Shown: piece after piece, positions 18,854-45,581 of the stretch
How positions within the stretch are numbered: the stretch's first letter is position 1
How the letters are laid out: the number at the start of each line of letters is the position of its first letter
Origin: Planctomycetota bacterium
GTDB lineage: Bacteria; Planctomycetota; Phycisphaerae; Phycisphaerales; Phycisphaeraceae
Assembly (NCBI GenBank): GCA_016350165.1
Contig: CP066225.1
Coordinates: 3,596,001-3,660,000, forward strand
DNA: 64,000 bases
Reading direction: 5' to 3'
The notes under the pieces: model-generated
Seen by the model: the letters and a program-made list of their open reading frames with translations, nothing else
Databases searched by the model: none
Told to the model about the DNA's origin: nothing
Position numbers and translations under genes: made by a program

Positions 18854-20986
18854 CTATTCTTTGTTCTTCATCTTCTCTAAACGCGCTTTCGCTAACTGCC
18901 CAATTTCTTCTTCAGGGTATGATTCCGCAAGTACAGCAAGATGAGCTTCATTATCCTTGGACCAGCTGTAAAAATTATTCCCACCCGAACTGAGGAAATT
19001 ATTTAGATTGGCCTTCATGAAAAAATCATGAATATGTTCAAAATCATTTTCAGAGATTCTGGGATGTCGCCCGTTGAAGGTTTCCTGGATATTGCGTATG
19101 CGATACCAATCCTTCGCTCCAAGTTCACCACGCTTAATCGACATAAGCCAATCGAAATAAGCTTTCTGATACGCAAAGGAATCTGATTTGTTTACCAATG
19201 TTCTCCATGCAACCATATGCGTATACGAAATCTTGTTGCCCCATATTTCATGAGCTTTTTGATAGTACTTTACTTGCAGATCTTCATGATTTTCATTGTA
19301 ATTTCGATCACCTTGATGCAGGTAACCTAGACGAAAGTAGACCTCAGCCTTAAATGGTGTGTCAGGATTTAATTCCAGATATTTGTTGAATAAACGAATC
19401 GCTTCGTCATGCTTCTCTTCATCGTTATACGCATCAAACGCCAAGCGAAGCATCGGATCAACTTCATACATTCCTTCTGGTGTGAGATCTTCCAATACGT
19501 TGGGTATATCTGCACGCGTCTCTGGAATCACATACTCAGGCAAATCAGCAGGTGGATGGAACTGCCTGAATCGTTTCCATGGCCGCTTCGGTCGATCATC
19601 TGGCGTCTTTAAAAACTCCAAATAACGTCTCGCATATTCCGCAGCAGGTGTATTGGGCACCTCATCAACAATACGCTGCAAATTCTTCTCAGGCTCCGAT
19701 GTTGAACCAATCGATGACACCATGTTGACCATGCTTGTGCTTACAAGACCTGGAAAGTTACGGATAAATGCGTTGTATTTACGATCTGAAGGCCCTGAAG
19801 TACCTTTGGGTTTCATCCACTTTTCACGTATTGATTCCTTGGTGAATGAAATTAGCCACTTATAAATTTCCAGTTTTTTCTCAAACCGTTCATCATAACT
19901 AAGTGAATGCCCAATCTGATGATTTCTAGCACGTAGCATTACCATATTAATGCGTTCAGGTTCTTCTTTAATCGCTAATTTAAGATACCTTTCAGCTATT
20001 TCATCATTAGATTCTTCACCTTTTTCGGTTTGAATATTTGTCGTATATAAAATACCTAATTGTGTATAGACATACGCGCGCTGAGCAGTATCCGTTTCAC
20101 GTTCCAGGTATTTCAAATAATATTTTTCTGCTAATTGACGATTAGCCAAAACTCTATTCCCACCGGTCGACTCAGCATCGTGAAGCATAGCTTTATGCAA
20201 ATCCGGATCACCCTTGTAATTGACGAGATGATCACGATATGGATTGCGGTAGATTCTGTACTCATTTAATTTCTCTTGCGCATGTGCAAGCTGAGAAATC
20301 GCAATCGAAATTTCAGACCACGTCTTTTCACTCTGCCAATCTAATCCATTCTTTAACTGTTCAATCGCGACATTGGCTTCAACATCAAGCAACGCTTGGA
20401 CAACTTCAAACGCGCGATCATAAGGCACATACTCATTCACTTTACTATGCACAATATAAAAGTTGCGTCCCTTTGCATTCTTTAAATCAAACAGCTTCGC
20501 GTCAAAATCACTCTCAACAACCACTGTACCTGTAAACACAGTTTCCTTTTGAGTCGCAAGATTGTATCCACTGATTCCTTCATCACCGATTGCAACAACA
20601 AAGACAAGGTCGGGATTGATATTCAATCTTTTGTCCGCATCTTTAGCTGCTGCTTCGATTAATTGGCTTCGCATTTTCACTTCATCAGTTTTGATGTGAA
20701 TTGCGTAGTATTTAAACGGGATATTATAATCAAATCGCTTAAATAGATGACGGATCAGCGAATACTCTTTCTCACTCGTTTCCCGATCAGAAACAAAGCA
20801 CAGCAATCCATAAGGCTTATCACGTTCTTTATCAACACGTGCCTGCGCAATCGTATACATCGCATCTGGTACACCAGATATAGCATAGTCAGTGCTCTCA
20901 ATGATCACCGGCTGTTCAGCATGCGCATACATGCTGTTAAGTAAAAACAATTCAATCAAGAGTAAACAATATGCAAACTTATTCAT
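18854..20986 (-). CDS. Exported TPR-containing protein, function unknown
   Basis: 710 residues. A signal peptide (about 1-23, ending AHAEQ) is followed by an alpha/beta segment (about 55-190) with alternating strands (YGLLCFVSDRE, KYYAIHIK, DLVFVVAIGDEG) that could be a Rossmann- or thioredoxin-like fold without CxxC. The rest is helical. ANRQLAEKYYLKYLERE to GILYTT near 290-325 and AIRLFNKYLELNPDT to YRFRLGYLHQGD-like text near 530-565 are TPR-type helix pairs. It probably serves as a periplasmic scaffold. A run of smaller exported proteins follows on the same strand. Confidence 0.8.
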   Translation of the reverse strand: MNKFAYCLLLIELFLLNSMYAHAEQPVIIESTDYAISGVPDAMYTIAQARVDKERDKPYGLLCFVSDRETSEKEYSLIRHLFKRFDYNIPFKYYAIHIKTDEVKMRSQLIEAAAKDADKRLNINPDLVFVVAIGDEGISGYNLATQKETVFTGTVVVESDFDAKLFDLKNAKGRNFYIVHSKVNEYVPYDRAFEVVQALLDVEANVAIEQLKNGLDWQSEKTWSEISIAISQLAHAQEKLNEYRIYRNPYRDHLVNYKGDPDLHKAMLHDAESTGGNRVLANRQLAEKYYLKYLERETDTAQRAYVYTQLGILYTTNIQTEKGEESNDEIAERYLKLAIKEEPERINMVMLRARNHQIGHSLSYDERFEKKLEIYKWLISFTKESIREKWMKPKGTSGPSDRKYNAFIRNFPGLVSTSMVNMVSSIGSTSEPEKNLQRIVDEVPNTPAAEYARRYLEFLKTPDDRPKRPWKRFRQFHPPADLPEYVIPETRADIPNVLEDLTPEGMYEVDPMLRLAFDAYNDEEKHDEAIRLFNKYLELNPDTPFKAEVYFRLGYLHQGDRNYNENHEDLQVKYYQKAHEIWGNKISYTHMVAWRTLVNKSDSFAYQKAYFDWLMSIKRGELGAKDWYRIRNIQETFNGRHPRISENDFEHIHDFFMKANLNNFLSSGGNNFYSWSKDNEAHLAVLAESYPEEEIGQLAKARLEKMKNKE

Positions 20987-30769: not shown

Positions 30770-32932
30770 TTATTTTGTGAATGTGAAGACGCGATGGCTG
30801 TCGAAGAGGTCGATTGTGGTGATGAGTTTGCCGTCTTCTTTGCGGAGGATGGAAGTGAAGTAGGCGGTGCTTGTTCCATCACGTGTGTTGCCGTGATGGA
30901 TGGCTGAGGGTGTTGACCAGGTTTTGAAGTCGTCAGTTGTGTAGGTGAATTTGAGTTGACCGCGTCGTTTGTCGGGGAACTGGAAGGAGAAATCGGCGGG
31001 CCAATCGTGTGAGTTATATGCTTCATCGGTGAGGAAGGCGACGACGGCGGGGCCGGCGTTGTTGCCGAGTCTTGTGACGTGCGGGTTGTATGCGTTGTAT
31101 GGTCGGCCGAGGGCGTCTGAATTTTTGGGTTGGTAGACGATGAATCGTTTATCGACGTTCCAGTTGTTGTTCCAATCGTTATTGGTTTTGCCGCCGTTGT
31201 AACCGATGATGCCACGGACGACGTTGTTGTGCGCGATTTGGTTTTTGTGTGTTGTGTCGTTGATGCGTCTTTTGAATGTGTATTCGTTGATGCTTTCAAA
31301 GACGAGAAGTAGTGTGTCGTTGCCTTGGTTGAGAGGGTCTTTGCGGAGAGTTGTGACGGTGGGCATGCCATCACGTGAGAGTTGTCCGATGGGTGCACGA
31401 ACGGCGATGGTGCGGTTTGAGGATGTGGAGAAATTTTTGCCTTGGATGTTGAGTGTTTTCATTACAATGTACTGATCGTTTGAAGAGAGGTCATCGACTT
31501 CGTGATCGTAGTAGATTTGAAGTGTGTTGTTGGAGAGTTGATGAAAAAATGGTGCGCCGACGAATTTGTTTTTGTTGCCTGCATCGATGTTTGTTTTAAA
31601 TCTGTGATAAGTTGGTTTTGTGTCGAGATTATCTACGCGGATGAGGTTTAGTGTGAAGTAGGATAGGTTGTTGTGTGTGTGCGGGTTGTTGTCTGGGTCG
31701 GTGAATTGGTGGATTGCGTGTGCGACAAGGAGGCAAGGTTTTGTTTCGTTGGGAAGTGTTCCTGCCCATAGTGCGACGTCGTGGAACTTAGAATCAGTTG
31801 GTAGGAAGTCGATGGTGAGGAAAGTTGCCCAAGTTTCAGCATCATTGCTTTGTAGTAATTGCAATCTGGTATTGATGTGTGCGGGGTTGGCTGGGCCGAT
31901 TTCTTTTGCGCCGTAATATTTGTTACCCAGTTTTACGATGGAGCGTTGGGGAGTGATGGCTTGGTTATGTTGTGGAGAGGCGAGGCGTGGGTTGATCCAA
32001 GATGTGTTGGTGAAGGCGGTGTCTTTGGATTGGAGCCATTGTGATTGAGGTAGGACTGTGTTTGAGATTCTGACTTCATCGATGAGTCCTAATGCGTAGT
32101 CGGCGTGTTTGCCTTTGGAGAGGCCTCGCCCGATGGACCAACCGCCTGAGTGCCAGCGTTTGTTGCTAGTTTTTGAGCCGACGAAGATGTTTGAATTTTT
32201 GCTGCTATAGGTTTTTGATGCGATGGAGATGTATTTGGCTTGATCGTTTGGAGTGTTGGGATTGGTGTTGTCGTTGAATAGAAAAAGTTCGAGTTTGCTG
32301 CCGTTGCTTGTGGCGACGAGGTGGTACCAGTTTGAGGACGTGACGAAGTTTGCTTTGGTTTGTGCGACGTGTGTGTTGCCGAGTTGGTCGATGAAAAGGA
32401 CTTTGAATCGATTGTCTTTTGTCACTTGTAGATTGAAAGAAGAGCGTTGATTGGTGGGGCTGATTTGTGCATCGCGCGAAATGATTGTTCGGGAGGTGTT
32501 GTTGAGTACAGGTTTGTAGCTTGCTTCTATGGTGAATTTTGAGAAGTCAGCGGTTTCGATGTTTGTGCTGGTGGGTTTTGATGCAGATGATTTTGTGAAG
32601 AGTTTAGGTGTGTTGCCTTGGTTTTTGATTGCGGTGTTGTTGAGTTGAGAGGATTGTGGAACTTTTGATTTGTATGTGTTAGCGACGTATTTGAATTGCG
32701 AATTGGTGTTGTTCCATGTGGAGAGATGGTTTCCGTTGCCTGATTCGTCATAGACGACAGGGGTGTAGTTGTAGGCTTTAGATGGTTGCTTGAGGATGCT
32801 GCCGGGGTTGCCGTCTTCGAAACGCCAGTATGCGACGACGTTGTCAGGGGTGTAGTTTTCGGAGAAGCAATTGATTGTAATGAATAGAAGGCATGTCAAG
32901 AAAGTGAATGCGTGGATCAAATGAAATTTCAT
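30770..32932 (-). CDS. Secreted LamG/concanavalin-like protein with BNR/propeller-like region
   Basis: About 720 residues. I favour ATG 32932 because GAGG lies 6 nt upstream, inside the first codons of the longer frame that begins at 32944. After a signal peptide (...ITINCFSENY) a concanavalin-like LamG domain covers about 30-320. It opens VVAYWRFEDGN and includes DESGNGNHL, FTIEASYKP and a terminal GLIDEVRISNTVLP strand, all LamG hallmarks. The C-terminal half (about 330-720) has repeated WATFLTIDF, VTRLGNNAGPAVVAFL and FKTWSTP elements typical of sialidase/BNR-like propellers. Binding or hydrolysis of extracellular glycans is likely; no catalytic residues can be named. Confidence 0.85.
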   Translation of the reverse strand: MKFHLIHAFTFLTCLLFITINCFSENYTPDNVVAYWRFEDGNPGSILKQPSKAYNYTPVVYDESGNGNHLSTWNNTNSQFKYVANTYKSKVPQSSQLNNTAIKNQGNTPKLFTKSSASKPTSTNIETADFSKFTIEASYKPVLNNTSRTIISRDAQISPTNQRSSFNLQVTKDNRFKVLFIDQLGNTHVAQTKANFVTSSNWYHLVATSNGSKLELFLFNDNTNPNTPNDQAKYISIASKTYSSKNSNIFVGSKTSNKRWHSGGWSIGRGLSKGKHADYALGLIDEVRISNTVLPQSQWLQSKDTAFTNTSWINPRLASPQHNQAITPQRSIVKLGNKYYGAKEIGPANPAHINTRLQLLQSNDAETWATFLTIDFLPTDSKFHDVALWAGTLPNETKPCLLVAHAIHQFTDPDNNPHTHNNLSYFTLNLIRVDNLDTKPTYHRFKTNIDAGNKNKFVGAPFFHQLSNNTLQIYYDHEVDDLSSNDQYIVMKTLNIQGKNFSTSSNRTIAVRAPIGQLSRDGMPTVTTLRKDPLNQGNDTLLLVFESINEYTFKRRINDTTHKNQIAHNNVVRGIIGYNGGKTNNDWNNNWNVDKRFIVYQPKNSDALGRPYNAYNPHVTRLGNNAGPAVVAFLTDEAYNSHDWPADFSFQFPDKRRGQLKFTYTTDDFKTWSTPSAIHHGNTRDGTSTAYFTSILRKEDGKLITTIDLFDSHRVFTFTK

Positions 32933-32944
32933 GTTCATCCTCAT

Positions 32945-33250: not shown

Positions 33251-36200
33251 TTATTGAGAATTGTGCATGTCGCTTACTTTGTCACAAAGGGATTCAAGTG
33301 TTACTAAGAAAGTTTGGTGGTAGAGCGAGCTTGCAGAGTATCTTTCATCTTTGGAAAGATGCTGATGGCATTGAATGAGGGAGAGGTATGGTTCTTGAGC
33401 GTAAGTGAGTGAGATGCCTTGGGTTGGATCGTTTGAGTATGGGATGTTGTTTAACCATTGATTGAACTGCTTTTGGAAACGTTCAAGGTGAGGCAGGACA
33501 GTTGTATAATCGATAATTTTGCTGTCGTAATCGTAGAACTGATTTGATAGTGCTCGTGCTGCGCCATTGATTGCATTGATTTGGCTGTATGCTAGTTTCA
33601 GGTCTGGTTTTGCGTTAGGGGTTGGTGTGAAAGTTGAGGGGAATTTGGACTGATTGGCGAGGACTCTAAGGTTTTGGATGAGTTTTTCATTTGATGTACT
33701 GCTTGTGAGGCTGAGGAGTAGGTTGAGTTCTGGTGTGGGGTTGCCTTGCTCGATGGTGTCGTCTTTGAGTTGCTCGTGTAGTGATGTGAGGATTGGGGTG
33801 ATGTTGGTTGTGTATGATTCGATGAGTGTTTGGGCGGGCGTGTTTTGAGAGAGCTGCGTGATCATATCAATGTGTTTTTGATAGGTTTGGATTGTGATTT
33901 GATTGCAAGTATCAGCTTGGTCAACGCTGTCGGTGAGTTGCGCGATTGCGTTTAGGGTGTTGTAGATTGTTTCGTAGTTTTTGTTTAGCTGATCTTGTGA
34001 AAGTTGCTTTGGCGTGCTGGTAGATGAGGCTGTGTAGGTTGTTGGTTTATCTTTGTAGAGGGTTATGTCGTTGAGTTTGAGTGAAACTTTGTTGGTGATT
34101 GCGTTTGCGTATTGGAAGACGATAGGTTTTGCGTCTTTTGATTTACTGTCATGAAGGATGAGGAGGTCTTTGCTACCTGCGGTCCATGTGCCTGACCAGA
34201 CGGTTTCGGTTGAGACGATGTCTGAAGGTGTTGGGTTGGTGAAGATGGCTTGGATGAGCCATGTGTTGTCTGGGTTGATTTGAACGTTTAGGTAGCCTGC
34301 GTTTGGAGGTGTTTGTTGCGGTTCCCTTTGAGCTTCGGTGTACCAATTGCCTATAAAATGAGAGTTATCGTAGTTGGATGATTGTAGCGTTGGTAGTGTT
34401 GGAGGTTGATCTTCGAGTCGTTTGAAGGTTAGTCCGTGTTCGGACATGAAGAGAACGCCGGGGTTGTATGAGACGTATTGTGAGCCTTGGGCGGAGGTGA
34501 TTTTAAAAGTGTTGAGGTTGTAACGATCCCATGTGTATGAATCGAAGAGTTGAATATCTTGCTTGGTTTCTGCGTTGTAGAAGTAGCATTTAGCGGTTCG
34601 ATCTTTGTTGATGATTGTGTGCAAGCCGAGCTTGTTGATGTTTGATAGTTCAGGTGCGAGTGAGAAGATCGTGTTTTTGTACTGTAGAGGTAGTTCGAGT
34701 GCGTACCAGTGGCCGATCATGTCTTCGGATTTGTGAGCTTGGCGGATGATGTCGTTGGAAGGGTGTTCGAAGCGATAGAGTTGAACGCCGTGTGTGTATA
34801 GGATGAGTGAGTTGTATGGTTTTTGGATTGAGCCGATTTCATCGCCGCTGGTGTCAGTGATTGTGATGTAGCTGCCGTCGTCATCTTGCCAGGTGAATTG
34901 AGAGGCGAGCCAAATGTCTTGTTTTTCGAAGGAATTGCAGTAGTAGAGGGCGCCGGTGTTGTCGGGGTTGAGTTTGCAGTGTAAACCGAAAAAATCTTTG
35001 TTTAGAAGGAAGCTGTTTTTGATTTTGAGGTTTGTGCTGAGTTGTTCAGGGAGTTGAAGAGCGTACCAATCGCCGAGGTATGGTTGTATGGAAGTGAGTT
35101 GAGGTTTTTCACGGTTGAATTGGAATTCGGCTGAGTTGTCTAAGAAGAGCGTGCCGTTGATGATGCGAATTATGCCTTCGACGTTGTCTGGTGTAGTGAT
35201 TTTGTAAACGTTTGGTGAAACGGTTTCCCATGTGCCGTATTGGTAGAGGACGTCTTTGTGTTTTCCTTGTGGGTCATGGAAATGAAGGTTTGCGTTTTTG
35301 TCATTGTCGAACGTGAAACGGAGCATAAATGGATCGGGGACTGATAACAGTTCGTTGTCGAAGGTGAAGTTGTTGAGTTTTGAGAATTGTTTTTGCGTGT
35401 AGATTTGTGAGTGCCAATGGCCGAGGATTGGGGATTGGTCTTTTTTTGCAGTGGTTTTGCTATCGGGTTTGTTGCGTGTGAGGGCAGGGAGATTTGTTGT
35501 GTCGTCGAATTTGATCGATTCCCTTGTGAATGAGGTAATCTGAGGGTTTTTGCAGATCAGGTTCTTGCCGAATTTGTTTTTGATGACGATGGAACCATCG
35601 CTGGCGTATTTCCACGTACCGTCGATGAATGGGATGGTGTATTGGTTGTTGTTTACGATGAGGTTGCCAGCGATTGTGTTGTTTTCATTGATGGTTACTT
35701 GAGCGATGACGTGTTTGGGTTTTGAGTAGTTAGAGATCGAGTCGACGCCATAAAGATGGATGTTACTAAATGTGATCCGGTCGGTGATTTGGCTGTACCA
35801 GTTACCATAGATAGGTGGGTTTTTGTCGGCAGAGCCAATGTTGACTAAGTCGTTTGGTTGGAGTTTTATTCCGATTCTCTTCACGAGGAGATCGTAGAAG
35901 TTGTAGTTGGTTATGGTTTTGATGTTGCCTTGCCCATCATTTCTGGTGAGGTAAGCGACATATTCCTTGTATAGTTCTTCGAGCGTTTGATCTTTGGATG
36001 ATTTGAGTGTGGGGATGCCACCGGCGGATGCAATAAGTTCACGAAGTAGAAGGTCATCTGCGGCTACGTATGCACCGGGTCTGACGATATCGCCCATGAT
36101 GTAGATGTATGCTTTGTCAGTTTCTTCTGATGATGAAGTGTATTTTTTTTGATTGATGTGATCAGTTGTTATTGTTGTTGCGTTGGTATTGTATTCATAT

Positions 36201-39200
36201 GGGCCTGAGGGGAAGCCTCGGTTGAGAATTGGTAATTGGACGGTGTCGTTGAATTGCAAGAGGTTATTGTTGTTAAGAATGATGCGAGGGTCGCTACAGA
36301 TTGGGCTGTCAGCGAGTGCGTTGCTGATGATGATCTGGTCTTTGGAAGCGTTGTATTCCCAGAAGCCATCGATGAAGACGAGTACGAGTTGGTCGTCGTC
36401 GAGATGTACTTTGCCAAGGACGCGGTTCTGGTTGAAATATAGGTGAAGAATTGCTTTTTCAACAGATGGTGGGTTGGGTAGTTCGCTAAGGTAGGCTTTG
36501 ATTATGTTTTTAATGTTTGGTTCACTGAGGGTTGTGTACCACTTACCTTGTATGAGGCCGAGGTTGATGTTTTGAGTTGGTTGTTTGCGGTAGATATCAA
36601 GCGAGCCGTTGAGGTTGATACGAGCGTGTTGTTTATCGTTTGAGAGTTGTATTGGGTTACGACGACCTGAGAACGTTGTAGCTATGGTGTTGTAGTCGTC
36701 TGCATCCCATGCTGCCATTTTGAATTTGATCAGATCAGTTTGTGCTTTGTAATCATATAATGTGCCGTATATACCGGTGTTCTTTTGGAACTTATAGTGG
36801 TATGCGAGTGTGTCGCAGTGCTTGATTGCGCTGTATTGCTCTTTTGAGAGGAAATGTTTGATGTGCGAGCGTGGGATAGCGAGGGAGTACCAATCGCCTA
36901 GGATTTCGTTTTTAAGGTTTTGTGTATGTGCTTTAGTTCGGCTAAGAAACTTTAAGTTCGTGTGATTGAAGCTGAGTGTTTGCTTGTCTGTAGAGAGTGA
37001 TGAGATTTTGGATTTTTTATTCAGGGTCGTTTGTAGTTTATTATTTTTGTAGTTCCATGTGCCACGCCATTTGAGTAAGCAGTCAGTTGCATCGCGTTGA
37101 TCGTAAGCGAATACAAAGATTTGATTGTCGACAGTGAGTTGTACGTGGAAAGTGAATGTTGTGCAGCCTTTGTTTTCTAGAATCTCAAGATCATCATCGG
37201 TGAAGATGTGGTTGAATTCTTCGATAGCATAAATTGGAGAGTACCAGTTACCGAGGAATTGATAGTCAGCGTTGGAATGTTTGGATTGGGGCTTGGTTCG
37301 TGTGAATGGCTGGTAATCTACAATGTCACGAAGTTTTATGGTTTTGTTGTTTGCAAAAAGTGAGTATGGGATAGTAGATGGTTTATCTCGATCATAGTAA
37401 GCCTGAACGACATTATTGTTCTTGTCAGATGTTAGGTTGCTATGTGTATTGAAGATTGAAATAATCTCGGATGCGTCGATATCATAAAGAAAAGCTTGGG
37501 ATTGGCCGTTTGCAAATATCATGAAAGAGGCAGCGATGTTCTCCCGACCACGTAAGTAGCTATGTTGTTTTTGAAGCTGCTTGATCGTGTATGTGTCGAG
37601 TTGTGCATACCATTGTCCTACTAAAGAATCAGAGATTCGGTTACGTCTTTGTGAAGTTCTCGATCCTGATTTTTCTTGACCCATACGCGTATCTGAATTT
37701 CTCCCCGTACCCATTCCCCTCATGTCCATATCGGAGGTGTTCTCACTTGAGTCTGCGTATGATGATGAAATTACATATTCGGCAGATTTTAATGATGGGT
37801 TATTTGATTTGTTTTGTTGCTGGAGATGTTCGAGACCGTCTGAGATATTGTCGTAATTGTTGGCGTGGAACCAGCCGTGATTGCCATCATATGTTTTATG
37901 CATGACATTGGCTTTGGCTTTGGTGAGTGTACTGAGTGCTTTGCTTGAGAAGTTGTATGGTACGACCCGGTCAGATTTGCTGTGGTAGATAAAGAAGTTT
38001 TTGTTTTTGGCGAAGCGGAGTTGCTGAGGTCTTGGCTTGAAGACACTCATGGCGACGAATGAGCCTGTGACAGGTGAGTCTTTTTGTAATGCGAGGTCGT
38101 AAGCTGCTGGGCCGCCGGAAGACCATGCGAGTGTAAAGATTTTAGTTTCGTCTATTTTGTGGTTAGACTTGACGTCTTTGATGATGTCGTTGATGAGTGT
38201 TTCGGTTGTGAACTTCATACCACGGAATTTGTGGTATTTGTTTGGCCAAGTGACGTTGTCCGTCTGCATCTTGGACCATTGTGGTGCGATGGGTTGAACG
38301 GCAATAAAGTTGGGGTTGGCTTCAAGGGCTGCGAATTTGTAGAGACGTCTGCAGAAAAAGTGGAAATCTTCGGAGCCGTCGCCGCCTGGGATGATGATGA
38401 GGAGCGGACGTGGTTGTGATTCGGTTTCCTCGGAAGTGGATTGGCTATCCATGAGGATATAAGTTTTCTTTTTGTCTTTGTCGAGGGTGATGCGTGTTGC
38501 GGAAATGTCGGCAACGTCGGTGACGTTAGCGGGTGTGGGAACAGGTACTTCGGTGCGAAGGGATGTTGAGTCATTTTGTGAGGAGGATTGGGCTAACTTG
38601 CGATTAGAGTTTTTGCGTGCAGGGGCTGCTGTGAGCATGGCTGTGGGGATAGTGAGTGAAAGGAGGAGGAGGGTGATGAGAAGGGTTTTGGGTTTGGTGA
38701 GTGTGGTACGTATACGGTTGGTGTCGAGGATTGCGAGGATACGTTTTTCGAAGGTGTTTTTGTTGGCCATTTGAATGCCCCCGCCCCCGCCCCCGGAAGT
38801 TAAGATTGAGAGGGCGGAGGGTGTTGTTGAATTGGTAGCAATATCGAGAATTAATTGTGCGTAGTCAGATGGTTTGATGGTTTCTGTTGGGTTGGATGTT
38901 TGGGTGAGGACGAGGTCGTCACATGCGCGTTCACGCTCGATGTTCATACGGTGTGCGGCGAACCAGACGAGTGGGTTGAAGTAGTAAAGGCAGCATGCGA
39001 AGTAGGCGAGAAGTTGTGTTAGGCAGTCATAGCGTTTGATGTGTGCGAGTTCGTGAAGAAGGACAGAACGTGTGCGTGAGGTTGGCCATTGGTTTGCGGA
39101 TGATGGGAGGAGGATGTTGGCGGAACGTGAGGGGAGGTAGCCAAAGGTCATGGGCATGGTGGCTTTGGCGGATTGATAGAGGTTGATTTCTGGTGTGATG

Positions 39201-39772
39201 CTGAGAGAGGAGCATTGCTGATCAAGTAGATTGAGTAGGTTTTCATCGGTGGTGAGATTGGCGTGTTTTTTAATGTGGCGCAAACGAAGGAAAGCGAGAG
39301 GGATGAAGGTGATCAGGAGTATGGGTGGCGCGAAAATGAGGTACGTGTAGTCGAATGATGGTTTGGTTGTTGATGGGGAAAATAGTGGTGTTTGATTGAG
39401 TGTTTGTTCAGGTTGTGGTGTTGGAGTATTGGATGAGGGGGAGAGGATTGGATTAGATGTTGGTGTCGGTAATTCGAAAGATGAGGAGGTGTTGGTTGTC
39501 GTTACAGATAGTGGGGGTGAGGTTGTTGTGGTCGGAGGTTGGGTTGTGATGTGAGTCGGGATGATTGTGTTTGTGGGTAAGAGGGGAAGTGAAGGGAGGA
39601 ATGATGAGGCGAAAGGGAGGATGAGTAGGGCGATGGTCGTGAGGAACCATGCGAAGTGGCGAGCCGCGGCTGGGGACTTGCGCATTAATAGGGGGATGAG
39701 GGTGGATGCGATGGCGGTGATGATGAGGGATTTGAATGCAATATCGATGATGAATGCGATTAAGGGTGTCAT
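33251..39772 (-). CDS. Giant BlaR1-like protein: M56 protease + esterase-like domain + nine W-Y repeats + SLBB domain
   Basis: 2173 residues in one uninterrupted frame, against about 600 for ordinary BlaR1. Residues 1-385: M56 membrane metalloprotease with helices near 3-30, 40-60, 143-163 and 362-382, zinc motif HELAH at 240-244 and a further acidic ligand near 281 (ERACDD). 405-645: alpha/beta-hydrolase-like domain with AWSSGG (Ser551), Asp601 in SKSDRVVPY and His632 in GNHGWF. 711-1910: nine units starting G-x-W-Y/H at W721, 843, 961, 1078, 1325, 1453, 1569, 1689 and 1810. 1218-1316: SLBB-like, IYIMGDIVRPGAYV to LQPNDLVNIG. 1915-2173: helical tail. GGGAG lies 7 nt before ATG 39772. It follows blaI by 92 nt. 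Confidence 0.9.
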   Translation of the reverse strand: MTPLIAFIIDIAFKSLIITAIASTLIPLLMRKSPAAARHFAWFLTTIALLILPFASSFLPSLPLLPTNTIIPTHITTQPPTTTTSPPLSVTTTNTSSSFELPTPTSNPILSPSSNTPTPQPEQTLNQTPLFSPSTTKPSFDYTYLIFAPPILLITFIPLAFLRLRHIKKHANLTTDENLLNLLDQQCSSLSITPEINLYQSAKATMPMTFGYLPSRSANILLPSSANQWPTSRTRSVLLHELAHIKRYDCLTQLLAYFACCLYYFNPLVWFAAHRMNIERERACDDLVLTQTSNPTETIKPSDYAQLILDIATNSTTPSALSILTSGGGGGGIQMANKNTFEKRILAILDTNRIRTTLTKPKTLLITLLLLSLTIPTAMLTAAPARKNSNRKLAQSSSQNDSTSLRTEVPVPTPANVTDVADISATRITLDKDKKKTYILMDSQSTSEETESQPRPLLIIIPGGDGSEDFHFFCRRLYKFAALEANPNFIAVQPIAPQWSKMQTDNVTWPNKYHKFRGMKFTTETLINDIIKDVKSNHKIDETKIFTLAWSSGGPAAYDLALQKDSPVTGSFVAMSVFKPRPQQLRFAKNKNFFIYHSKSDRVVPYNFSSKALSTLTKAKANVMHKTYDGNHGWFHANNYDNISDGLEHLQQQNKSNNPSLKSAEYVISSSYADSSENTSDMDMRGMGTGRNSDTRMGQEKSGSRTSQRRNRISDSLVGQWYAQLDTYTIKQLQKQHSYLRGRENIAASFMIFANGQSQAFLYDIDASEIISIFNTHSNLTSDKNNNVVQAYYDRDKPSTIPYSLFANNKTIKLRDIVDYQPFTRTKPQSKHSNADYQFLGNWYSPIYAIEEFNHIFTDDDLEILENKGCTTFTFHVQLTVDNQIFVFAYDQRDATDCLLKWRGTWNYKNNKLQTTLNKKSKISSLSTDKQTLSFNHTNLKFLSRTKAHTQNLKNEILGDWYSLAIPRSHIKHFLSKEQYSAIKHCDTLAYHYKFQKNTGIYGTLYDYKAQTDLIKFKMAAWDADDYNTIATTFSGRRNPIQLSNDKQHARINLNGSLDIYRKQPTQNINLGLIQGKWYTTLSEPNIKNIIKAYLSELPNPPSVEKAILHLYFNQNRVLGKVHLDDDQLVLVFIDGFWEYNASKDQIIISNALADSPICSDPRIILNNNNLLQFNDTVQLPILNRGFPSGPYEYNTNATTITTDHINQKKYTSSSEETDKAYIYIMGDIVRPGAYVAADDLLLRELIASAGGIPTLKSSKDQTLEELYKEYVAYLTRNDGQGNIKTITNYNFYDLLVKRIGIKLQPNDLVNIGSADKNPPIYGNWYSQITDRITFSNIHLYGVDSISNYSKPKHVIAQVTINENNTIAGNLIVNNNQYTIPFIDGTWKYASDGSIVIKNKFGKNLICKNPQITSFTRESIKFDDTTNLPALTRNKPDSKTTAKKDQSPILGHWHSQIYTQKQFSKLNNFTFDNELLSVPDPFMLRFTFDNDKNANLHFHDPQGKHKDVLYQYGTWETVSPNVYKITTPDNVEGIIRIINGTLFLDNSAEFQFNREKPQLTSIQPYLGDWYALQLPEQLSTNLKIKNSFLLNKDFFGLHCKLNPDNTGALYYCNSFEKQDIWLASQFTWQDDDGSYITITDTSGDEIGSIQKPYNSLILYTHGVQLYRFEHPSNDIIRQAHKSEDMIGHWYALELPLQYKNTIFSLAPELSNINKLGLHTIINKDRTAKCYFYNAETKQDIQLFDSYTWDRYNLNTFKITSAQGSQYVSYNPGVLFMSEHGLTFKRLEDQPPTLPTLQSSNYDNSHFIGNWYTEAQREPQQTPPNAGYLNVQINPDNTWLIQAIFTNPTPSDIVSTETVWSGTWTAGSKDLLILHDSKSKDAKPIVFQYANAITNKVSLKLNDITLYKDKPTTYTASSTSTPKQLSQDQLNKNYETIYNTLNAIAQLTDSVDQADTCNQITIQTYQKHIDMITQLSQNTPAQTLIESYTTNITPILTSLHEQLKDDTIEQGNPTPELNLLLSLTSSTSNEKLIQNLRVLANQSKFPSTFTPTPNAKPDLKLAYSQINAINGAARALSNQFYDYDSKIIDYTTVLPHLERFQKQFNQWLNNIPYSNDPTQGISLTYAQEPYLSLIQCHQHLSKDERYSASSLYHQTFLVTLESLCDKVSDMHNSQ
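34040..37620 (-). repeat. Protein-level repeat array, nine ~120-residue W-Y units interrupted by an SLBB domain
   Basis: Each unit starts L/I-G-x-W-Y, carries a central G-T-W or F/Y-T-W strand, and ends in a hydrophobic strand plus Arg/Lys (LSRTK, YRKQP, LNRGF, LTRNK, FNREKP, YRFEH, FKRLED, YKDKP). Spacing between the leading Trp is 122, 118, 117, 247, 128, 116, 120 and 121 residues; the long gap holds the SLBB domain. DNA identity between units is low, so the duplication is old. Confidence 0.8.
38778..38797. repeat. GGGGGC hexanucleotide repeat (three units) in the BlaR1-like gene
   Basis: On the coding strand three GGGGGC units encode six consecutive Gly (residues 327-332) just after the M56 catalytic core. 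Being a hexamer it would change length in frame. Three G5 runs could also fold as a partial quadruplex. Confidence 0.7.
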
Positions 39773-39864: not shown

Positions 39865-40266
39865 TCAGTTGCCTTTTTTACGGGCTTTATTGATGAGTTT
39901 GTTGAGTTGTTTGAGTTCGCTGTCGGAGAGTTTATTTGTGTTGTCGGTGAGGTGTGCGGTGAGTGCTTGTTCAAGTGAGCCTGAGTAGAAGGTCGAGAGA
40001 ACGTTGCGGAGAGCAGAGAGTCCTGCGGAGGACTTTGAGTTTTTGGGTGTGTAGAGAAATTCACGTCCCTTTTTTGTGCGAGAGATGTGTCCTTTCTCTT
40101 CGAGGATTTTGAGGAATGTGCGAACGGCGGTGTGTGAGGGGGGATCTGGAAGACGTGATTGGATGTCATTAACGGTTGCGGATTCGAGTGAGTAGAGAAT
40201 GTCCATGATTTGGCGTTCGCGGCGTGAGAAGCCGGGGGTGTTTTGTGATGATTTGGCGGGGGGCAT
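39865..40266 (-). CDS. blaI: BlaI/MecI-family transcriptional repressor
   Basis: 133 residues. A winged-helix DNA-binding half: SRRERQIMDILYSLESATVNDIQSRLPD, then HTAVRTFLKILEEKGHISRTKKGREFLYTP, closely matching BlaI/MecI. The C-terminal helices (about 85-133) form the dimer part. Members repress their own operon and are removed when a BlaR1-type partner senses its signal. The partner here is the giant M56 protein directly downstream. GGAG lies 6 nt before ATG 40266. The Lys-rich N terminus extends about 12 residues beyond the common start. Two palindromes sit upstream. Confidence 0.93.
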   Translation of the reverse strand: MPPAKSSQNTPGFSRRERQIMDILYSLESATVNDIQSRLPDPPSHTAVRTFLKILEEKGHISRTKKGREFLYTPKNSKSSAGLSALRNVLSTFYSGSLEQALTAHLTDNTNKLSDSELKQLNKLINKARKKGN

Positions 40267-40312
40267 GTTTTGCTCCGAATGCTGGGGTTTTGGATTGCAA
40301 AATAATGAACCA

Positions 40313-40324
40313 CTAAAAAATTAG
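40313..40324. promoter_or_regulatory. Putative BlaI operator, proximal copy
   Basis: CTAAAAAATTAG, a perfect CTAA-N4-TTAG dyad centred 52 bp upstream of the blaI start. Both copies share the longer ACTAAAAAATTAGCG. Confidence 0.7.
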
Positions 40325-40355
40325 CGGATGCGAGGGATGGTGTCAAGTGTTAAAA

Positions 40356-40367
40356 CTAAAAAATTAG
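40356..40367. promoter_or_regulatory. Putative BlaI operator, distal copy
   Basis: A second CTAAAAAATTAG, 43 bp (about four helical turns) from the first, placing two dimers on the same face of the DNA. The blaI promoter probably lies around or between the two. Confidence 0.7.
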
Positions 40368-40417
40368 CGAGTTCGAGAAAATGAGGAAATAATGAATGGT
40401 GTATGTGAGTAGATGAA

Positions 40418-40468: not shown

Positions 40469-40819
40469 TTATTCAATGGAATTGTTGATTGGTGGTTTAC
40501 TGTGGGTGTGTTTTGGGGTGTGCTTAGGTGGAAAGATTAGATAGAGGAGCGTGTAGAAAATTGGGTGAAGGATAGCTATGTTGAGGAGAAAGTAGAAGAT
40601 GTGGAGTTCGCAGATCCAGGCATAGCCGTGGCCGATGTAGAAGAATGTGAATGGGAAACCGAAGTGAAAAACGGCGTCCTGAACACCCCAAGTGGTGAGC
40701 CAAAGGCATGAGGCTGCGTTGAGGAGTAGGACTGTAATGAATGCAATGATGGTGTTGCGGGGTGATATTTGAGTGTTGAATTTCATGGTTTCGCTAAGCA
40801 TTGGTTCGCGTTGTATCAC
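40469..40819 (-). CDS. Small membrane protein, function unknown
   Basis: Up to 116 residues with three hydrophobic segments (NTIIAFITVLLLNAASCLWL, FGFPFTFFYIGHGYAWI, IFYFLLNIAILHPIFYTLLYLIF) and a His/Pro/Lys-rich C-terminal tail. The longest frame starts at GTG 40819; ATGs at 40801 and 40786 are alternatives, none with a ribosome site. Its neighbour upstream has a similar size and layout, so the two may be distant paralogs. No family named. Confidence 0.65.
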   Translation of the reverse strand: MIQREPMLSETMKFNTQISPRNTIIAFITVLLLNAASCLWLTTWGVQDAVFHFGFPFTFFYIGHGYAWICELHIFYFLLNIAILHPIFYTLLYLIFPPKHTPKHTHSKPPINNSIE

Positions 40820-40870
40820 AGTAGCGTGCTGTTGATTGATTGCTGGTAGTTTTAGATTTTGAAAGTCTAA

Positions 40871-41227
40871 TCATGAATTAGTTGTTTTGAGGGGTTGTGA
40901 TTTTGAGTTTTTGAATTTGTGGTATATGAAACTGATGAATTTGCCTAAGAGATAGTATTGGATGCCGCCGCAGATTAGAAAGGTGGTTGCGGGGAATGTG
41001 ATGAATTTGATTATTGTGCTGGTGTTTGAGGTGGTGATGAGGTTTGCATCGAGTAGCATGAAAATGAATGAAGAGGGGAGGTCGATGATAAGGATTATGT
41101 TCCAAAGCAAGAAGATTTCGTTGGGTGCTTGGGGAGATGGGTCGTAGTTTTTGAAAATGATGGCTGCGAATGTCAGGACGATGATGGTATGAATGATGAG
41201 TAGTCGGAGGGATAGTTTGATGTCCAT
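40871..41227 (-). CDS. Small membrane protein, function unknown
   Basis: 118 residues with three to four hydrophobic segments (LRLLIIHTIIVLTFAAIIF, LWNIILIIDLPSSFIFMLL, IIKFITFPATTFLICGGIQYYLLG) and a basic C-terminal tail KFKNSKSQPLK. It lies 51 nt from the next small membrane gene on the same strand, so a two-gene unit is likely. No function readable. Confidence 0.65.
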   Translation of the reverse strand: MDIKLSLRLLIIHTIIVLTFAAIIFKNYDPSPQAPNEIFLLWNIILIIDLPSSFIFMLLDANLITTSNTSTIIKFITFPATTFLICGGIQYYLLGKFISFIYHKFKNSKSQPLKTTNS

Positions 41228-41294: not shown

Positions 41295-44200
41295 TTAATC
41301 TGAGGAAGGATGAATGCGGAAGAAGATTGCGTAGAGGAGAGGAACGACGATTAGGGTGAGGACGGTGGCGAAGGCGAGGCCGGCCATGATGGTGACGGAC
41401 ATTGCGGCGAAGAATGCGTCGGCGAGAAGTGGAATCATGCCGAGGATTGTGGTGATGGCTGCGAGAGAGACAGGGCGAACGCGGCTAACGGATGAATGAA
41501 GGATGGCGAGGTAGGGTTGCTTGCCTTCGGATATTTCGAGATTGATTTGGTCGATGAGTACTATTGCGTTTTTAATGAGCATGCCTGAGAGGGCAAGGAA
41601 GCCGAGGAGGGCCATGAAATTGAAGGGTTGTTGCGTTGAGACGAGGCCGATGGCGACGCCGATGATTGCGAGTGGGACGGTGAGGAAAATGATGATGGGT
41701 GTGCGGATTGCGTTGAAGATACAGATGATGGTGAGGAACATTGCGACGATGACCATGGGGATAGAAGCGAAGAGTTTTTCTTGTGCTTCGGATGAATCTT
41801 CGTATTCGCCGCCCCATTCGAGTGTGTATCCGGGTGGGAGTTTTATGTCTTCGATCTGTGGTTTGAGTTGGTTGAAGAGGACGGAGGCATTGCCGACGGC
41901 TGCATCACATTTAGCGGTGATTGTTAAACGTCGATCGCGACGACGAATGATCGAATCTTCCCATTCGGTCTCAAAGCTTGTTACAAGTTGTTGAAGCGGG
42001 ATGGTTGTGCCTGCAGCGGCTGAATAGACTTGTGTGTTTGCGAGCTGTTGTGCATCGGACCCTTCTTCGGTTGGTCGACGTGAGATGATGGGTAGGAGTT
42101 TGTTGCTTTCGCGATATGTGCCGACGTTGAGGCCGCCGAATTGTGTCTGGATTGCTTGTGAAATTTCTTGTTGGGTTAAGCCTGCGGCGATGGTGCGTTG
42201 TTCTGAGATGATGGGTCGAATGGTTTTGACTGGTGCTCGCCAATCATCGAGTATATTTGTTGCGTTTTGGTTCTTGTAGAAGATCAATTGCGCTTCATCG
42301 GAGAGTTGTCGTAATACGATTGGGTCTGGGCCTGAAAAACGAGCTTGTATTTTGGCAGAACCGCCGGGGCCAAGAACGAATCGATTGGTGATAATGATTG
42401 CATCGGGGTAGTTGTCTTCGATGTATTTTTTAACGATGGGCATCGTTGGTGTGATATCGTCGTATGTTTTGACATCAACGAGGAGTTGGCCGTAGGAAGT
42501 GTTTGGGTCTTCGGGAGCGTAAGTGAGGAGGAAACGAAGGCCGCCTTGTCCGAGGAATGTTGTTGTGCCGGTGACATTAGGAAGAGTTTTGATGTGCGAG
42601 GCGATTTGTTTGAGGTCGCGTTCAGTGGTGTCGATGTGTGTACCCTGTGGTAGCCAATAGTCGACGATGAATTGCGAACGCGTGGAATCGGGGAAGAATG
42701 ATTGTGGGATGAATTGCATTCCCCAGACGGAAAGTGTGAGTGTACCGACGAGGATGAGACATGCGGTGGCGCGATTGTGGAGTACAAAATTGAGAAAACG
42801 TTTGTAAGTGTTGAGGATGATGTTGTCGTACGGGTCTTTGCCTTCGGGCATGGGTTTGATTTGGAGAAAGTAGTAGCAGACGAGCGGTGTTGTGGTGATT
42901 GCGAAGATCCATGAGAGGAGGAGTGAAAAGAGGATGACCCAGAAGAGTGATCCTGCGAATTCGCCAGTGGAGTCGTTGGAGAGGCCGATGCCTGCGAAGG
43001 CGAGGATGGCGACGATGGTCGCGCCGAGGAGTGGGAATGAGGTTTGGCCTACGACTTGTTTTAAAGCGTCGAGACGTGATGAGCCTTTTTGTTGATTGAT
43101 GATGCAGCCTTCGACAATGACGATTGCGTTATCGACGAGCATACCCAATGCGATGATTAGAGCGCCGAGTGATATGCGTTGAAGTGCAATGTCGTACCAG
43201 CGCATGAGAAGGAACGTGCCGAGGACGATGAGGACGAGGATGAAGCCGATGATTAGACCGGAGCGTAAACCCATTGCAAGTAGGAGAACGCCTACGACGA
43301 TGGCGACTGCTTCAACGAGGTTGATGATGAAGCTGTTGACAGCTTCGCGAACGGATTCAGCTTGTATGGAGATGGCACCGATTTCCATGCCGAGGGGGCG
43401 GAAGGGTTCGAGTTCGGCGAGTCGTTGTTTGACTGCATCGCCCATGACGACGACGTTGCCGCCGGAGACGGTGGAGATGCCGAGTCCGATGGCGCGTTGG
43501 CCGTTGAAGAAGAGTTTGTTTGAGGGAGGTTCTTCGTAGCCGCGCATGATGTCGGCGACGTCACGAAGTCGGATGATTGCGGTAGTTTTGTTTGCTTCGT
43601 TTGAGGATGAGGAAGATTGGCCTTCGTTAATGAAAAGGTTGCCGATGGCTTCGACGGTTTGGAAGCCGCCGGTTGGGTGGATGCGGATATATTCAGAGCC
43701 TACTTCGACTTTGCCTGCGGGTTCGAGGAGATTTTGTTTTTCGAGGAGGTTGTAGATGGAGGATAGTGGAATGCCGAGTTGTGTGAGTTTTGCGTTTGAA
43801 ATTTCGATGTAGACGACTTCTTGCTGAACGCCGTAGAGAGAGACTTTTGCAACGTCCTGAACGAGGAGCAGTTCGCGACGCAGGAAGTCAACGTATTCTT
43901 TGAGCTCGGCGTATGTATAGTCGGGTCCAGTAATGGCGTAATAGATGCCATAGACATCGCCGAAGTCGTCGTAAACAAGTGTGGTTACGTTGGGTGGGAG
44001 GTTGCCTCGCGCGTCACCGACTTTGCGGCGGAGTTCATCCCAGACTTGTGGAAGTGTATCTTTGTCGTACGTGTCTTTGATTTCGACGTTGATTTGAGCG
44101 AAGCCAAATTCGGAGCGTGAGCGTATGTGTTTGATTTGACCTAACTGTTGAATAGCTGTTTCGAGCGGGTCAGTGACTTCTTCTTGAACTTCGCGTGGTG

Positions 44201-44363
44201 AAGCGCCTGGGTATTGTGCATATACAACAGCTTCTTTGATGGTGAATTCTGGGTCTTCGAGACGGCTGAGGTTTTGGTATGCAAGGACACCTGCGATTGC
44301 GATGACGATGGTGATGGCAATCGTTATGACTTTATATTTGATGGAAGCTTCAGCGATGTTCAT
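41295..44363 (-). CDS. RND-family efflux transporter permease
   Basis: 1022 residues, the usual RND length. Two homologous halves each have a membrane helix, a large periplasmic loop and a helix bundle. Recognisable pieces are LEDPEFTIKEAVVYAQYPGASPREVQEEVTDPLE (N-terminal porter start), FPDSTRSQFIVDYWLPQGT in the second half and LPPGYTLEWGGEYEDSSEAQ. Helix 4 carries GMLVDNAIVIVEG: Asp411 of the proton relay is kept, while the second Asp of AcrB is Asn412, as in many VDNAIV-type relatives. It pumps substrates by proton exchange together with the adaptor encoded just upstream. No outer-membrane channel gene is in the window. No clear ribosome site. Confidence 0.95.
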   Translation of the reverse strand: MNIAEASIKYKVITIAITIVIAIAGVLAYQNLSRLEDPEFTIKEAVVYAQYPGASPREVQEEVTDPLETAIQQLGQIKHIRSRSEFGFAQINVEIKDTYDKDTLPQVWDELRRKVGDARGNLPPNVTTLVYDDFGDVYGIYYAITGPDYTYAELKEYVDFLRRELLLVQDVAKVSLYGVQQEVVYIEISNAKLTQLGIPLSSIYNLLEKQNLLEPAGKVEVGSEYIRIHPTGGFQTVEAIGNLFINEGQSSSSSNEANKTTAIIRLRDVADIMRGYEEPPSNKLFFNGQRAIGLGISTVSGGNVVVMGDAVKQRLAELEPFRPLGMEIGAISIQAESVREAVNSFIINLVEAVAIVVGVLLLAMGLRSGLIIGFILVLIVLGTFLLMRWYDIALQRISLGALIIALGMLVDNAIVIVEGCIINQQKGSSRLDALKQVVGQTSFPLLGATIVAILAFAGIGLSNDSTGEFAGSLFWVILFSLLLSWIFAITTTPLVCYYFLQIKPMPEGKDPYDNIILNTYKRFLNFVLHNRATACLILVGTLTLSVWGMQFIPQSFFPDSTRSQFIVDYWLPQGTHIDTTERDLKQIASHIKTLPNVTGTTTFLGQGGLRFLLTYAPEDPNTSYGQLLVDVKTYDDITPTMPIVKKYIEDNYPDAIIITNRFVLGPGGSAKIQARFSGPDPIVLRQLSDEAQLIFYKNQNATNILDDWRAPVKTIRPIISEQRTIAAGLTQQEISQAIQTQFGGLNVGTYRESNKLLPIISRRPTEEGSDAQQLANTQVYSAAAGTTIPLQQLVTSFETEWEDSIIRRRDRRLTITAKCDAAVGNASVLFNQLKPQIEDIKLPPGYTLEWGGEYEDSSEAQEKLFASIPMVIVAMFLTIICIFNAIRTPIIIFLTVPLAIIGVAIGLVSTQQPFNFMALLGFLALSGMLIKNAIVLIDQINLEISEGKQPYLAILHSSVSRVRPVSLAAITTILGMIPLLADAFFAAMSVTIMAGLAFATVLTLIVVPLLYAIFFRIHPSSD

Positions 44364-44384
44364 GTTTATTGGTGAAGAATATGT

Positions 44385-44399
44385 CTAATAGAAGGTTAG
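44385..44399. repeat. Intercistronic mini-hairpin, copy 2
   Basis: CTAATAGAAGGTTAG between the adaptor and permease genes. It differs from copy 1 (39815) at one base of the 15, and that base pair becomes a wobble, so the stem survives. Confidence 0.5.
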
Positions 44400-44402
44400 A
44401 AG

Positions 44403-45581
44403 TTATGTGCCGAATTCATTGGAATCGAATTGACGAACGGTTTGGCCGGGGTGTAGTTGTGATGCGCCAGTGGTGACGATTGTGTCGCCGGTGTTGAGGC
44501 CTTCGGTGACGATAGCGTTTTCGGCGGAAAGGTTGCTGATCGAGACGGGTTGCTGGGAAACTGCTTTTGTTTCAGGGTTAACTAACCAGACGAAAGATTG
44601 ATCGCCTTGCTTGAAGATTGCAGAAATCGGTACAGCGAAGCCTAACTCGGGTTTCATTTTGGATGAATCAGGTGGAGCGATGTGGACGGTTGTGGACATG
44701 CCAGGAAGGAGGAGAAAATCTTTAGGGTTAGGCATGACGAATGTGACTTCGTAGGTTTGTGTAATAGGGTTGGCTTCGGATTGATATTCCTTCATGGTGA
44801 GTGGGAATTGCTGATCGGGGATGAAGTCGAAGGTCGCGTACATGGTTTCGGGTTTTTCGTCTTTGTTGCCACGCGCGACGACGGTTTCGGGGATGTCGAC
44901 GATGATCTCGGCTTGCGTGATGTTCTGTAGTGAGATGATGGTTTCTTTGGCTTGTATGTTTTGGAAATTGTCGACGAATTTACGTGCGACGACGCCTGCG
45001 AATGGGGCAGTGAGGGTTGTGTCATCGAGTGCTTTTTGTTCGATGTGTACGGTGGCGCGTGCAGATTGCAGTTGAGCATTTGCGTTGATGAGTTCGACTT
45101 GTGTGGCGGCTTTTCGTTGAACGAGTTGTGCGATTTGTTTTTGTTTGATGTCGGCGGCTTGTAGATTGGCTTCTGCTTTTGCGAGGTTGTTTTCGAAGTC
45201 GCGTGGATCAAGTTGTGCGATGAGTTGACCTTTCTCCAGTTCATCACCTTGCATGGCGGGGAGGTCGATGATTTGACCTGTGACTTGGAATGCGAGGTCG
45301 ACGGATTGTCCGGCTTTAACACGGCCAGGGAAGGTGAGAAGATTTGCTTGTGTGGGTTGGCCGAGGGTGAGGAGTTTTGCTGGGCGAGTGGCTTGGATGC
45401 GCGGTTCTGCTTTGGGTTTTGGGTTGTAGAAGAGTAGTGCGAGGATGGCGATAGCAACGAAGACGATGCCAATGAGTGGGCCTATGCCTAGCTTGAGAAT
45501 GCGCACAAGTATTGGAGATTTGGGTTTGAGAGGATCGGGTTTGTTATCGGGAGGTGGGGACTGTTGTGGTTGATCGTTCAT
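44403..45581 (-). CDS. RND efflux periplasmic adaptor (HlyD/AcrA family)
   Basis: 392 residues. A Pro-rich cytoplasmic head and one transmembrane anchor (about 33-52) precede a lipoyl/barrel-sandwich half (AGQSVDLAFQVTGQIIDLP, KGQLIAQLDPRDFENNLAKAE), a coiled-coil hairpin (about 130-185), the second lipoyl half (LTAPFAGVVARKFVDNFQNIQA) and a beta-barrel plus membrane-proximal domain. It bridges the permease and an outer-membrane channel. It is first gene of a two-gene operon, 39 nt from the permease. GGAAG lies 7 nt before ATG 45581 and abuts the inverted repeat at 45592-45622. Confidence 0.93.
   Translation of the reverse strand: MNDQPQQSPPPDNKPDPLKPKSPILVRILKLGIGPLIGIVFVAIAILALLFYNPKPKAEPRIQATRPAKLLTLGQPTQANLLTFPGRVKAGQSVDLAFQVTGQIIDLPAMQGDELEKGQLIAQLDPRDFENNLAKAEANLQAADIKQKQIAQLVQRKAATQVELINANAQLQSARATVHIEQKALDDTTLTAPFAGVVARKFVDNFQNIQAKETIISLQNITQAEIIVDIPETVVARGNKDEKPETMYATFDFIPDQQFPLTMKEYQSEANPITQTYEVTFVMPNPKDFLLLPGMSTTVHIAPPDSSKMKPELGFAVPISAIFKQGDQSFVWLVNPETKAVSQQPVSISNLSAENAIVTEGLNTGDTIVTTGASQLHPGQTVRQFDSNEFGT

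Follow-up and report, generated by a model that had tools for sequence, protein, structure and literature searches.

BlaR1 is an antibiotic sensor that lets staphylococci notice penicillin. The locus described here raises the question of what such a receptor does when its penicillin-binding part has given way to something else: in a 64,000-nucleotide stretch of planctomycete DNA (hereafter the window; part of the single-contig genome G000, 5,234,020 bases), one reading frame joins a BlaR1-type M56 protease to an esterase, nine repeated units, an SLBB domain and a C-terminal tail. One published account of BlaR1 (PMC9834060) reports that it senses by acylation of the sensor domain and cleaves BlaI directly, and describes an autocleavage loop, the conserved residue Asp210 and the motifs HEXXH and EXXXD. 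An earlier note, made from the sequence alone, had read the planctomycete frame as a sensor of this kind with a huge extracytoplasmic part.

The 2173-codon frame (Table 1) is intact and has no internal stop, and a GGGAG lies 7 bases 5' of its ATG, an arrangement shared by its homologue in a sister species of the same genus (G001; contig of 4,291,168 bases). Residues 27-316 match the M56 family (Pfam PF05569, E 1.6e-26, above the cut-off with the whole protein as query), and the HELAH motif falls within this domain, as the earlier note had it. An E-x-x-x-D motif at residues 281-285 completes the HEXXH and EXXXD pair of BlaR1/M56 receptors, and D249 is also kept. By hydropathy alone, hydrophobic segments lie at residues 1-28, 34-61, 139-167 and 361-379, with another at 254-272, from which we infer that the protease is held among membrane helices. 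The 62% identity to the sister homologue extends over residues 6-382 and rises to 80% in residues 170-385 (dN 0.16 against dS 0.85). The stretch around NTFEKRIL, which separates the protease from the last membrane segment, hardly differs between the two species and would fit the autocleavage loop of BlaR1. No family of the penicillin-binding (transpeptidase-type) sensor domain occurred among the Pfam matches of the whole protein up to an E of 1, and the NCBIfam model blaR1_generic scored 102.5 bits (cut-off 400), covering residues 149-396 only. Unlike in BlaR1 and MecR1, the C-terminal outer part consists of ~1790 residues (82% of the receptor) with an esterase, barrels and an SLBB domain, which bears out the earlier suggestion that a huge segment has replaced the usual sensor.

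Table 1. Positions of the receptor, its parts and the associated regulatory features (window coordinates unless a locus is named)
Feature	Position	Strand	Basis or remark
Whole receptor gene, 2173 aa	33251..39772	(-)	intact homologue L023:9502-13296(-), 1264 aa
M56 (BlaR1-type) protease and predicted membrane segments, residues 1-385	38618..39772	(-)	Pfam PF05569, hydropathy, 62% identity to sister
HELAH zinc motif, residues 240-244	39041..39055	(-)	motif reading
Esterase-type domain, residues 404-655; S551, D601, H632	37808..38563	(-)	alignment, PDB profile, Pfam
Predicted barrel unit 1	37259..37630	(-)	leave-one-out profile
Predicted barrel unit 2	36905..37264	(-)	leave-one-out profile
Predicted barrel unit 3	36554..36910	(-)	leave-one-out profile
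Predicted barrel unit 4	36176..36559	(-)	leave-one-out profile
SLBB domain, Wza type, residues 1205-1318	35819..36160	(-)	profiles and AlphaFold2 model
Predicted barrel unit 5	35429..35818	(-)	leave-one-out profile
Predicted barrel unit 6	35081..35434	(-)	leave-one-out profile
Predicted barrel unit 7	34721..35086	(-)	leave-one-out profile
Predicted barrel unit 8	34370..34726	(-)	leave-one-out profile and AlphaFold2 (sole unit modelled)
Predicted barrel unit 9	33995..34363	(-)	leave-one-out profile
C-terminal tail, residues about 1926-2173	33254..33997	(-)	no known family; missing from G001 protein
BlaI-family repressor, 133 aa, 75% identical to sister's	39865..40266	(-)	Pfam PF03965, 2.2e-26
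Operator 1 (predicted), CGCTAATTTTTTAGTT, upstream of -35; 43 bp from operator 2	40354..40369	(-)	palindrome search
Operator 2 (predicted), CGCTAATTTTTTAGTG, over -10	40311..40326	(-)	palindrome search
Predicted promoter TTGACA-17-TAATTT	40318..40346	(-)	read by eye; same geometry in G001
Small membrane-protein gene behind blaI-type palindrome	L172:7445-7735 (G000); L171:7527-7880 (G001)	(-)	ECF sigma gene adjoins

The domain that follows the membrane segments carries the set A549-W-S551-S-G, D601 and H632. Its match to Pfam Abhydrolase_2 stays below the cut-off within the whole protein (21.2 of 23 bits) and passes it for the domain alone (25.9 bits), and its profile finds carboxylesterase 1auo (1.3e-9) and esterase 3doh (2.1e-9) in the PDB, alpha/beta hydrolases with which it shares the Ser-Asp-His set. 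W-S-S, D and H-G-W (domain positions 147-149, 198 and 229-231, corresponding to W550-S552, D601 and H632-W634) are kept in all 16 aligned members, the receptor's domain being only 31-57% identical to the 15 other planctomycete members and 57% identical to that of the sister species. The esterase-like residues picked out by the earlier note are therefore in place, and the sequence supports an alpha/beta-hydrolase-type esterase of the carboxylesterase kind with a kept and apparently intact triad.

Searches of 298 genomes of the class and 392 of the phylum found the esterase family in 18 and 31, respectively (own genome counted), alone or joined to other parts. Five long frames that we fetched (L078-L082) gave no M56 profile match, although L080 and L081, which have CarboxypepD_reg in front, are cut off by their contig ends and may yet include one, and by eye no M56 stands beside the esterase in the readable relatives outside the two species, a set without frames L030, L036, L037, L050, L052, L055 and L071 and a 645-aa frame in G401. 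One of the long chains (L079:1760-4717 (-)) opens with a Ser/Thr kinase (4.3e-47) and ends with the receptor's esterase family; the part between them looks hydrophobic in one stretch by eye and matches HEAT weakly, below the cut-off. Another (L078:1456-5565 (+)) spans 1370 aa, has the esterase towards its end and matched no Pfam family at E <= 0.02. A 710-aa protein encoded about 12 kb away from the receptor gene (window 18854-20986 (-)) opens with a degenerate copy of the receptor's esterase (25% identity, 5e-16) in which the Ser, Asp and His positions read G, N and L; this copy is probably dead, and weak TPR matches occur further on in the protein.

Beyond the esterase, nine units opening G-x-W-[YH] begin at residues 719, 841, 959, 1076, 1323, 1451, 1567, 1687 and 1808, in steps of 122, 118, 117, 247, 128, 116, 120 and 121 residues, the long step holding the SLBB domain. 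A leave-one-out profile found every unit at E 1.1e-5 to 1.8e-14, and the best of 1000 shuffles per unit lay between 0.0028 and 0.26; because the E-values of the units are far better than those of the best shuffles, the repeats are not a product of chance, and the nine units at a step of ~120 residues that the earlier note had described hold. The G-x-W opening occurs in 9/9 units, which are 12-18% identical to unit 1. An AlphaFold2 model of unit 8, built from 13 sequences (pLDDT 88.4, pTM 0.78), comprises a strand, two helices and then seven strands, giving an eight-stranded barrel with G-x-W in its first strand, as in lipocalins and calycins.

Comparisons with known structures and families point the same way at low significance. 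With a profile of 13 units, PDB sequences gave weak matches throughout, led by the lipocalin Darcin (0.031, profile positions 2-113 of 122) and followed by a fluorescent protein (0.36) and the lipocalin Can f 6 (0.54-0.64); Pfam recognised Lipocalin_4 in 2 of the 13 units (best 0.0019) and DUF5004 in one, with other single weak matches. Foldseek returned nothing at or below 0.001 for the unit 8 model, the best being 4iab (0.012), then NlpE, a lipoprotein and fatty-acid-binding-type proteins (FABPs). In VIA, where a best Z of 7-8 is common, the model matched the lipocalin-family protein 4gzv (Z 8.8; 81 residues aligned, 2.7 A), a designed barrel (8.8) and another (8.6), and further 4i95 (8.6), 4iab (8.4), the D-aminopeptidase 1ei5 (8.2) and FABPs (7.0-7.7). 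A TIGR03067-type planctomycete repeat, considered as the identity of the units, was not among the NCBIfam matches of the receptor at E <= 1. The units are very likely calycin-like in fold, to judge from their sequences and the one model. They share the G-x-W opening, the eight strands and the helix after the first strand with lipocalin-like barrels (Bacteroides lipocalin-family 4gzv, 4i95 and 4iab; NlpE; FABPs), and differ from them in forming a tandem array within a receptor. The calycin or lipocalin-like fold mostly holds small ligands. The units were found in 2 of 101 genomes (E <= 0.001) and in 2 of 397 genomes of the class (E <= 0.01; a set overlapping the 101), each time only in the receptor gene of G000 and G001, and the next match in their own genome had an E of 0.24.

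The segment between units 4 and 5 is SLBB-like, as had been suggested earlier. Pfam alone placed it below the cut-off (17.2 of 27 bits), and a profile of the two receptor SLBB segments found nothing relevant (best 0.95). Compared profile to profile, the same two segments matched four SLBB segments of other M56 proteins and one of another SLBB protein of the same genome with a probability of 98.3, and the joint profile of the seven sequences, known SLBBs included, matched Wza-type polysaccharide exporters (best 1.2e-11, 9n9a). An AlphaFold2 model from these seven sequences (pLDDT 84.8) matched Wza structures in Foldseek (best 3.5e-5), so that fold and profile agree. Unlike in Wza-type proteins, the domain occurs here as a single copy inside a receptor, with no Poly_export match. 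The tail that ends the chain, helical in the reading of the earlier note, matched no Pfam family at 0.05 and no PDB sequence at 5. The window also encodes, downstream and on the same strand, a 724-aa protein with a Laminin_G_3 domain (30770-32944 (-)); the sister species has a convergent autotransporter-like ORF, read by eye, at that place.

In the sister species, the homologue comprises M56, SLBB, esterase and four units and lacks the tail. We read a TAG inside its profile match as the receptor gene's own stop, overrun by the match. A split or frameshifted gene in a relative, which the earlier note had named as evidence that would count against it, is thus not what the sister species shows. 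The SLBB domain, 36% identical between the two proteins, stands before the esterase in the sister species, as against between units 4 and 5 in G000, and unit 8 is 51% identical to the last sister unit. Between the species, at a dS near saturation, dN is below dS for M56, the esterase, SLBB, unit 6 and unit 8; unit 7 gave a dN of 0.68 and dS of 0.57 against one partner, and 0.54 and 0.81 against a closer one. The outer modules thus differ between sister species, with SLBB elsewhere and the barrels multiplied or lost: SLBB has no fixed place, and the sensor is modular and fast-changing. Because barrel number, SLBB position and tail all differ, a large share of it could be dispensable to the receptor's outer part.

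M56 receptors are common in this planctomycete order, and their appendages are very diverse. Among 61 genomes, M56 matches above the cut-off occurred in 28 (own genome counted). From 37 such rows outside the two species we fetched 29 M56 frames, and a BlaI gene adjoins 28 of them, the exception being one of two M56 frames in L138. These frames share the protease and the BlaI neighbour with our receptor and carry widely varying appendages: CarboxypepD_reg in 10, TPR in 4, SLBB, secretin and ABhydrolase-like_N in 3 each and AhpC-TSA in 2. The receptor's esterase family and barrels were found in 0 of the 29 at E < 0.001 and set it apart from the others. Individual chains of the order include one with Poly_export and SLBB (L132:1765-4632 (+)), one with SLBB_2, a SecDF P1 head and DUF3887 (L138:1000-5259 (-)), and three that end in AhpC/TSA-thioredoxin-like domains or bear ankyrin repeats (L133:690-6017 (+), L144:1555-6213 (+) and L135:785-5092 (-)). 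None of the matches listed in a literature search, outside which most subscription papers fell, combined M56 with SLBB, esterase or lipocalin-like parts.

In both species a BlaI gene lies directly upstream of the receptor (PF03965 at 1.9e-24 in the sister). BlaI operators come in pairs, and CGCTAAnnnnTTAGCG-like palindromes occur exactly 43 bp apart at both blaI promoters (window 40311/40354; L023 13811/13854), with operator 2 covering the -10 of TTGACA-17-TAATTT in the window and of TTGACC-17-TAATTT in G001. A consensus promoter scan passed over the window promoter, its -10 agreeing with TATAAT at 3 of 6 positions, short of the 4 that the scan requires. At up to 3 mismatches, the window holds 6 sites against 1.19 expected (0/100 shuffles reach 6) and L023 holds 3 against 0.38 (2/200 reach 3); a 43-bp pair at that level appeared in 1/60 resampled windows, which makes one window alone suggestive only. 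At up to 2 mismatches the whole genomes are not enriched, with 6 sites in G000 and 12 in G001 against 30 and 18 in the reversed control. Single sites consequently mean little, being fewer than in the control, and what speaks for the predicted operators is solely their pairing, promoter position and conservation. No site at up to 2 mismatches lies at the other fetched M56 loci of the two genomes (L024-L027). One further G001 site, at 3698155, was inspected and judged a probable chance occurrence.

A second 43-bp pair, found among 10 distinct G001 sites, precedes, together with TTGCAA-17-TAAATT, a small membrane-protein gene that adjoins an ECF sigma gene. By our own arithmetic, the odds that some two of the 10 sites lie 43 bp apart by chance are ~2e-5, the distance having been known beforehand from the blaI promoters. 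The counterpart of this gene in G000 (locus L172) has upstream of it TTGTAT-17-TAATAT and a single perfect palindrome that lacks a second one 43 bp away. Gene order at this locus differs between the species, yet the palindrome remains with the small gene, whose product is 29% identical (6e-9) between them; the adjoining sigma factor is 72% identical. On this sequence evidence the small gene is a candidate member of the regulon. The adjoining BlaI gene in two species and the conserved paired palindromes at its promoter also support the part of the earlier proposal in which the receptor reports to BlaI, and we infer that BlaI binds these palindromes. The other part, that the outer segment could bind and trim a polymer, found no support: the units look like calycin barrels, and SLBB moves in the sister species.

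Taken together, these data describe what is probably an inner-membrane receptor that works like BlaR1 and releases BlaI from paired operators. With BlaR1/MecR1-BlaI/MecI it has in common the M56 protease with HEXXH and EXXXD, predicted membrane segments, a C-terminal outer part, an adjoining BlaI gene and paired palindromes at the blaI promoter. The protease would sit amid the membrane helices, facing the cytoplasm, with the esterase, nine barrels, SLBB and tail outside the membrane. The outer part would be altered by a compound that the esterase processes or the barrels hold, most probably some small ester, a lipid or a molecule derived from the envelope; the signal would then pass inward, releasing the protease to cleave the BlaI repressor encoded next to it. 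Loss of BlaI would free the paired operators at the blaI-receptor promoter, amplifying the system's own expression, and would likewise free those at the small membrane-protein gene. By analogy with BlaR1, sensing might even proceed by acylation, the barrels presenting an ester, lactone or lipid-like signal that acylates S551 and the slowly hydrolysing acyl-enzyme switching on M56, though we hold this to be quite unlikely. Were it true, an unrelated hydrolase fold would have been put to BlaR1's use, and the esterase-Ser/Thr kinase chain would represent another class of receptor that exploits it.

Other readings of the outer part deserve weight. It might be mainly an enzyme and binding scaffold on an M56 anchor, acting on envelope or food material, with BlaI signalling slight or lost; the outer part does make up 82% of the protein, and the readable esterase relatives stand alone or are joined to other parts with no M56 by eye outside the two species. 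We see just a small chance of this, given an M56 region and a BlaI that are strongly conserved between the species (the 80% identity and dN well below dS noted above for the former, 75% for the latter), the conserved palindromes, and the presence of M56 and esterase in one chain in two species. A somewhat doubtful but more plausible thought is that the barrels are a fast-drifting repeat expansion, a spacer or stalk without a ligand of its own, and that sensing takes place in the esterase or near the membrane, which would be compatible with a BlaR1-like receptor. The four units against nine in the sister species, the displaced SLBB and the low identity among units (12-18% to unit 1) are what such an expansion would leave, whereas the invariant G-x-W opening, the dN below dS for units 6 and 8 and the 51% identity of unit 8 to its counterpart speak for barrels under constraint.

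The neighbouring genes suggest another possibility, likewise compatible with a BlaR1-like mechanism: the system may sense pump substrates and control the adjacent pump. HlyD and AcrB-type genes (window 41295-45581 (-)) lie upstream of blaI in both species, the pump being 77% identical, and the two genomes share the gene order deaminase, HlyD, RND, BlaI, receptor. Such synteny counts for little between sister species, and the palindromes come after the pump's stop codon, none having been found upstream of HlyD and the RND pump; because no site lies at HlyD, we rank regulation of the pump lower and regard it as unlikely. No beta-lactamase was found among the neighbouring genes scanned. Two small ORFs, hydrophobic by eye, occupy window 40469-41227 (-) between pump and blaI, where G001 has only about 110 bp. 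The palindromes themselves might be transcription terminators or some other conserved element, for they lie between the pump genes and blaI, and the one at 40310-40327, which includes operator 2, was listed as terminator-like in a scan that found 19 such sites against 15.1 expected in shuffles. That they come as pairs at a fixed 43 bp on a promoter-like TTGnnn-17-TAAnnn, and that this promoter-like element recurs at four places (one with a single site, at L172 in G000), two of which precede the small membrane-protein gene, makes a terminator very unlikely and favours operators from which a BlaR1-like receptor would release BlaI.

Within this order, M56-BlaI pairs seem to serve as a general chassis for receptors, fitted with outer parts of many kinds; in the present protein the sensor has been replaced by an apparently intact enzyme and a series of barrels that probably hold ligands. 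Together with the second target gene, the predicted operator offers a direct read-out for the signal, which would help to show what planctomycete M56-BlaI pairs listen to.
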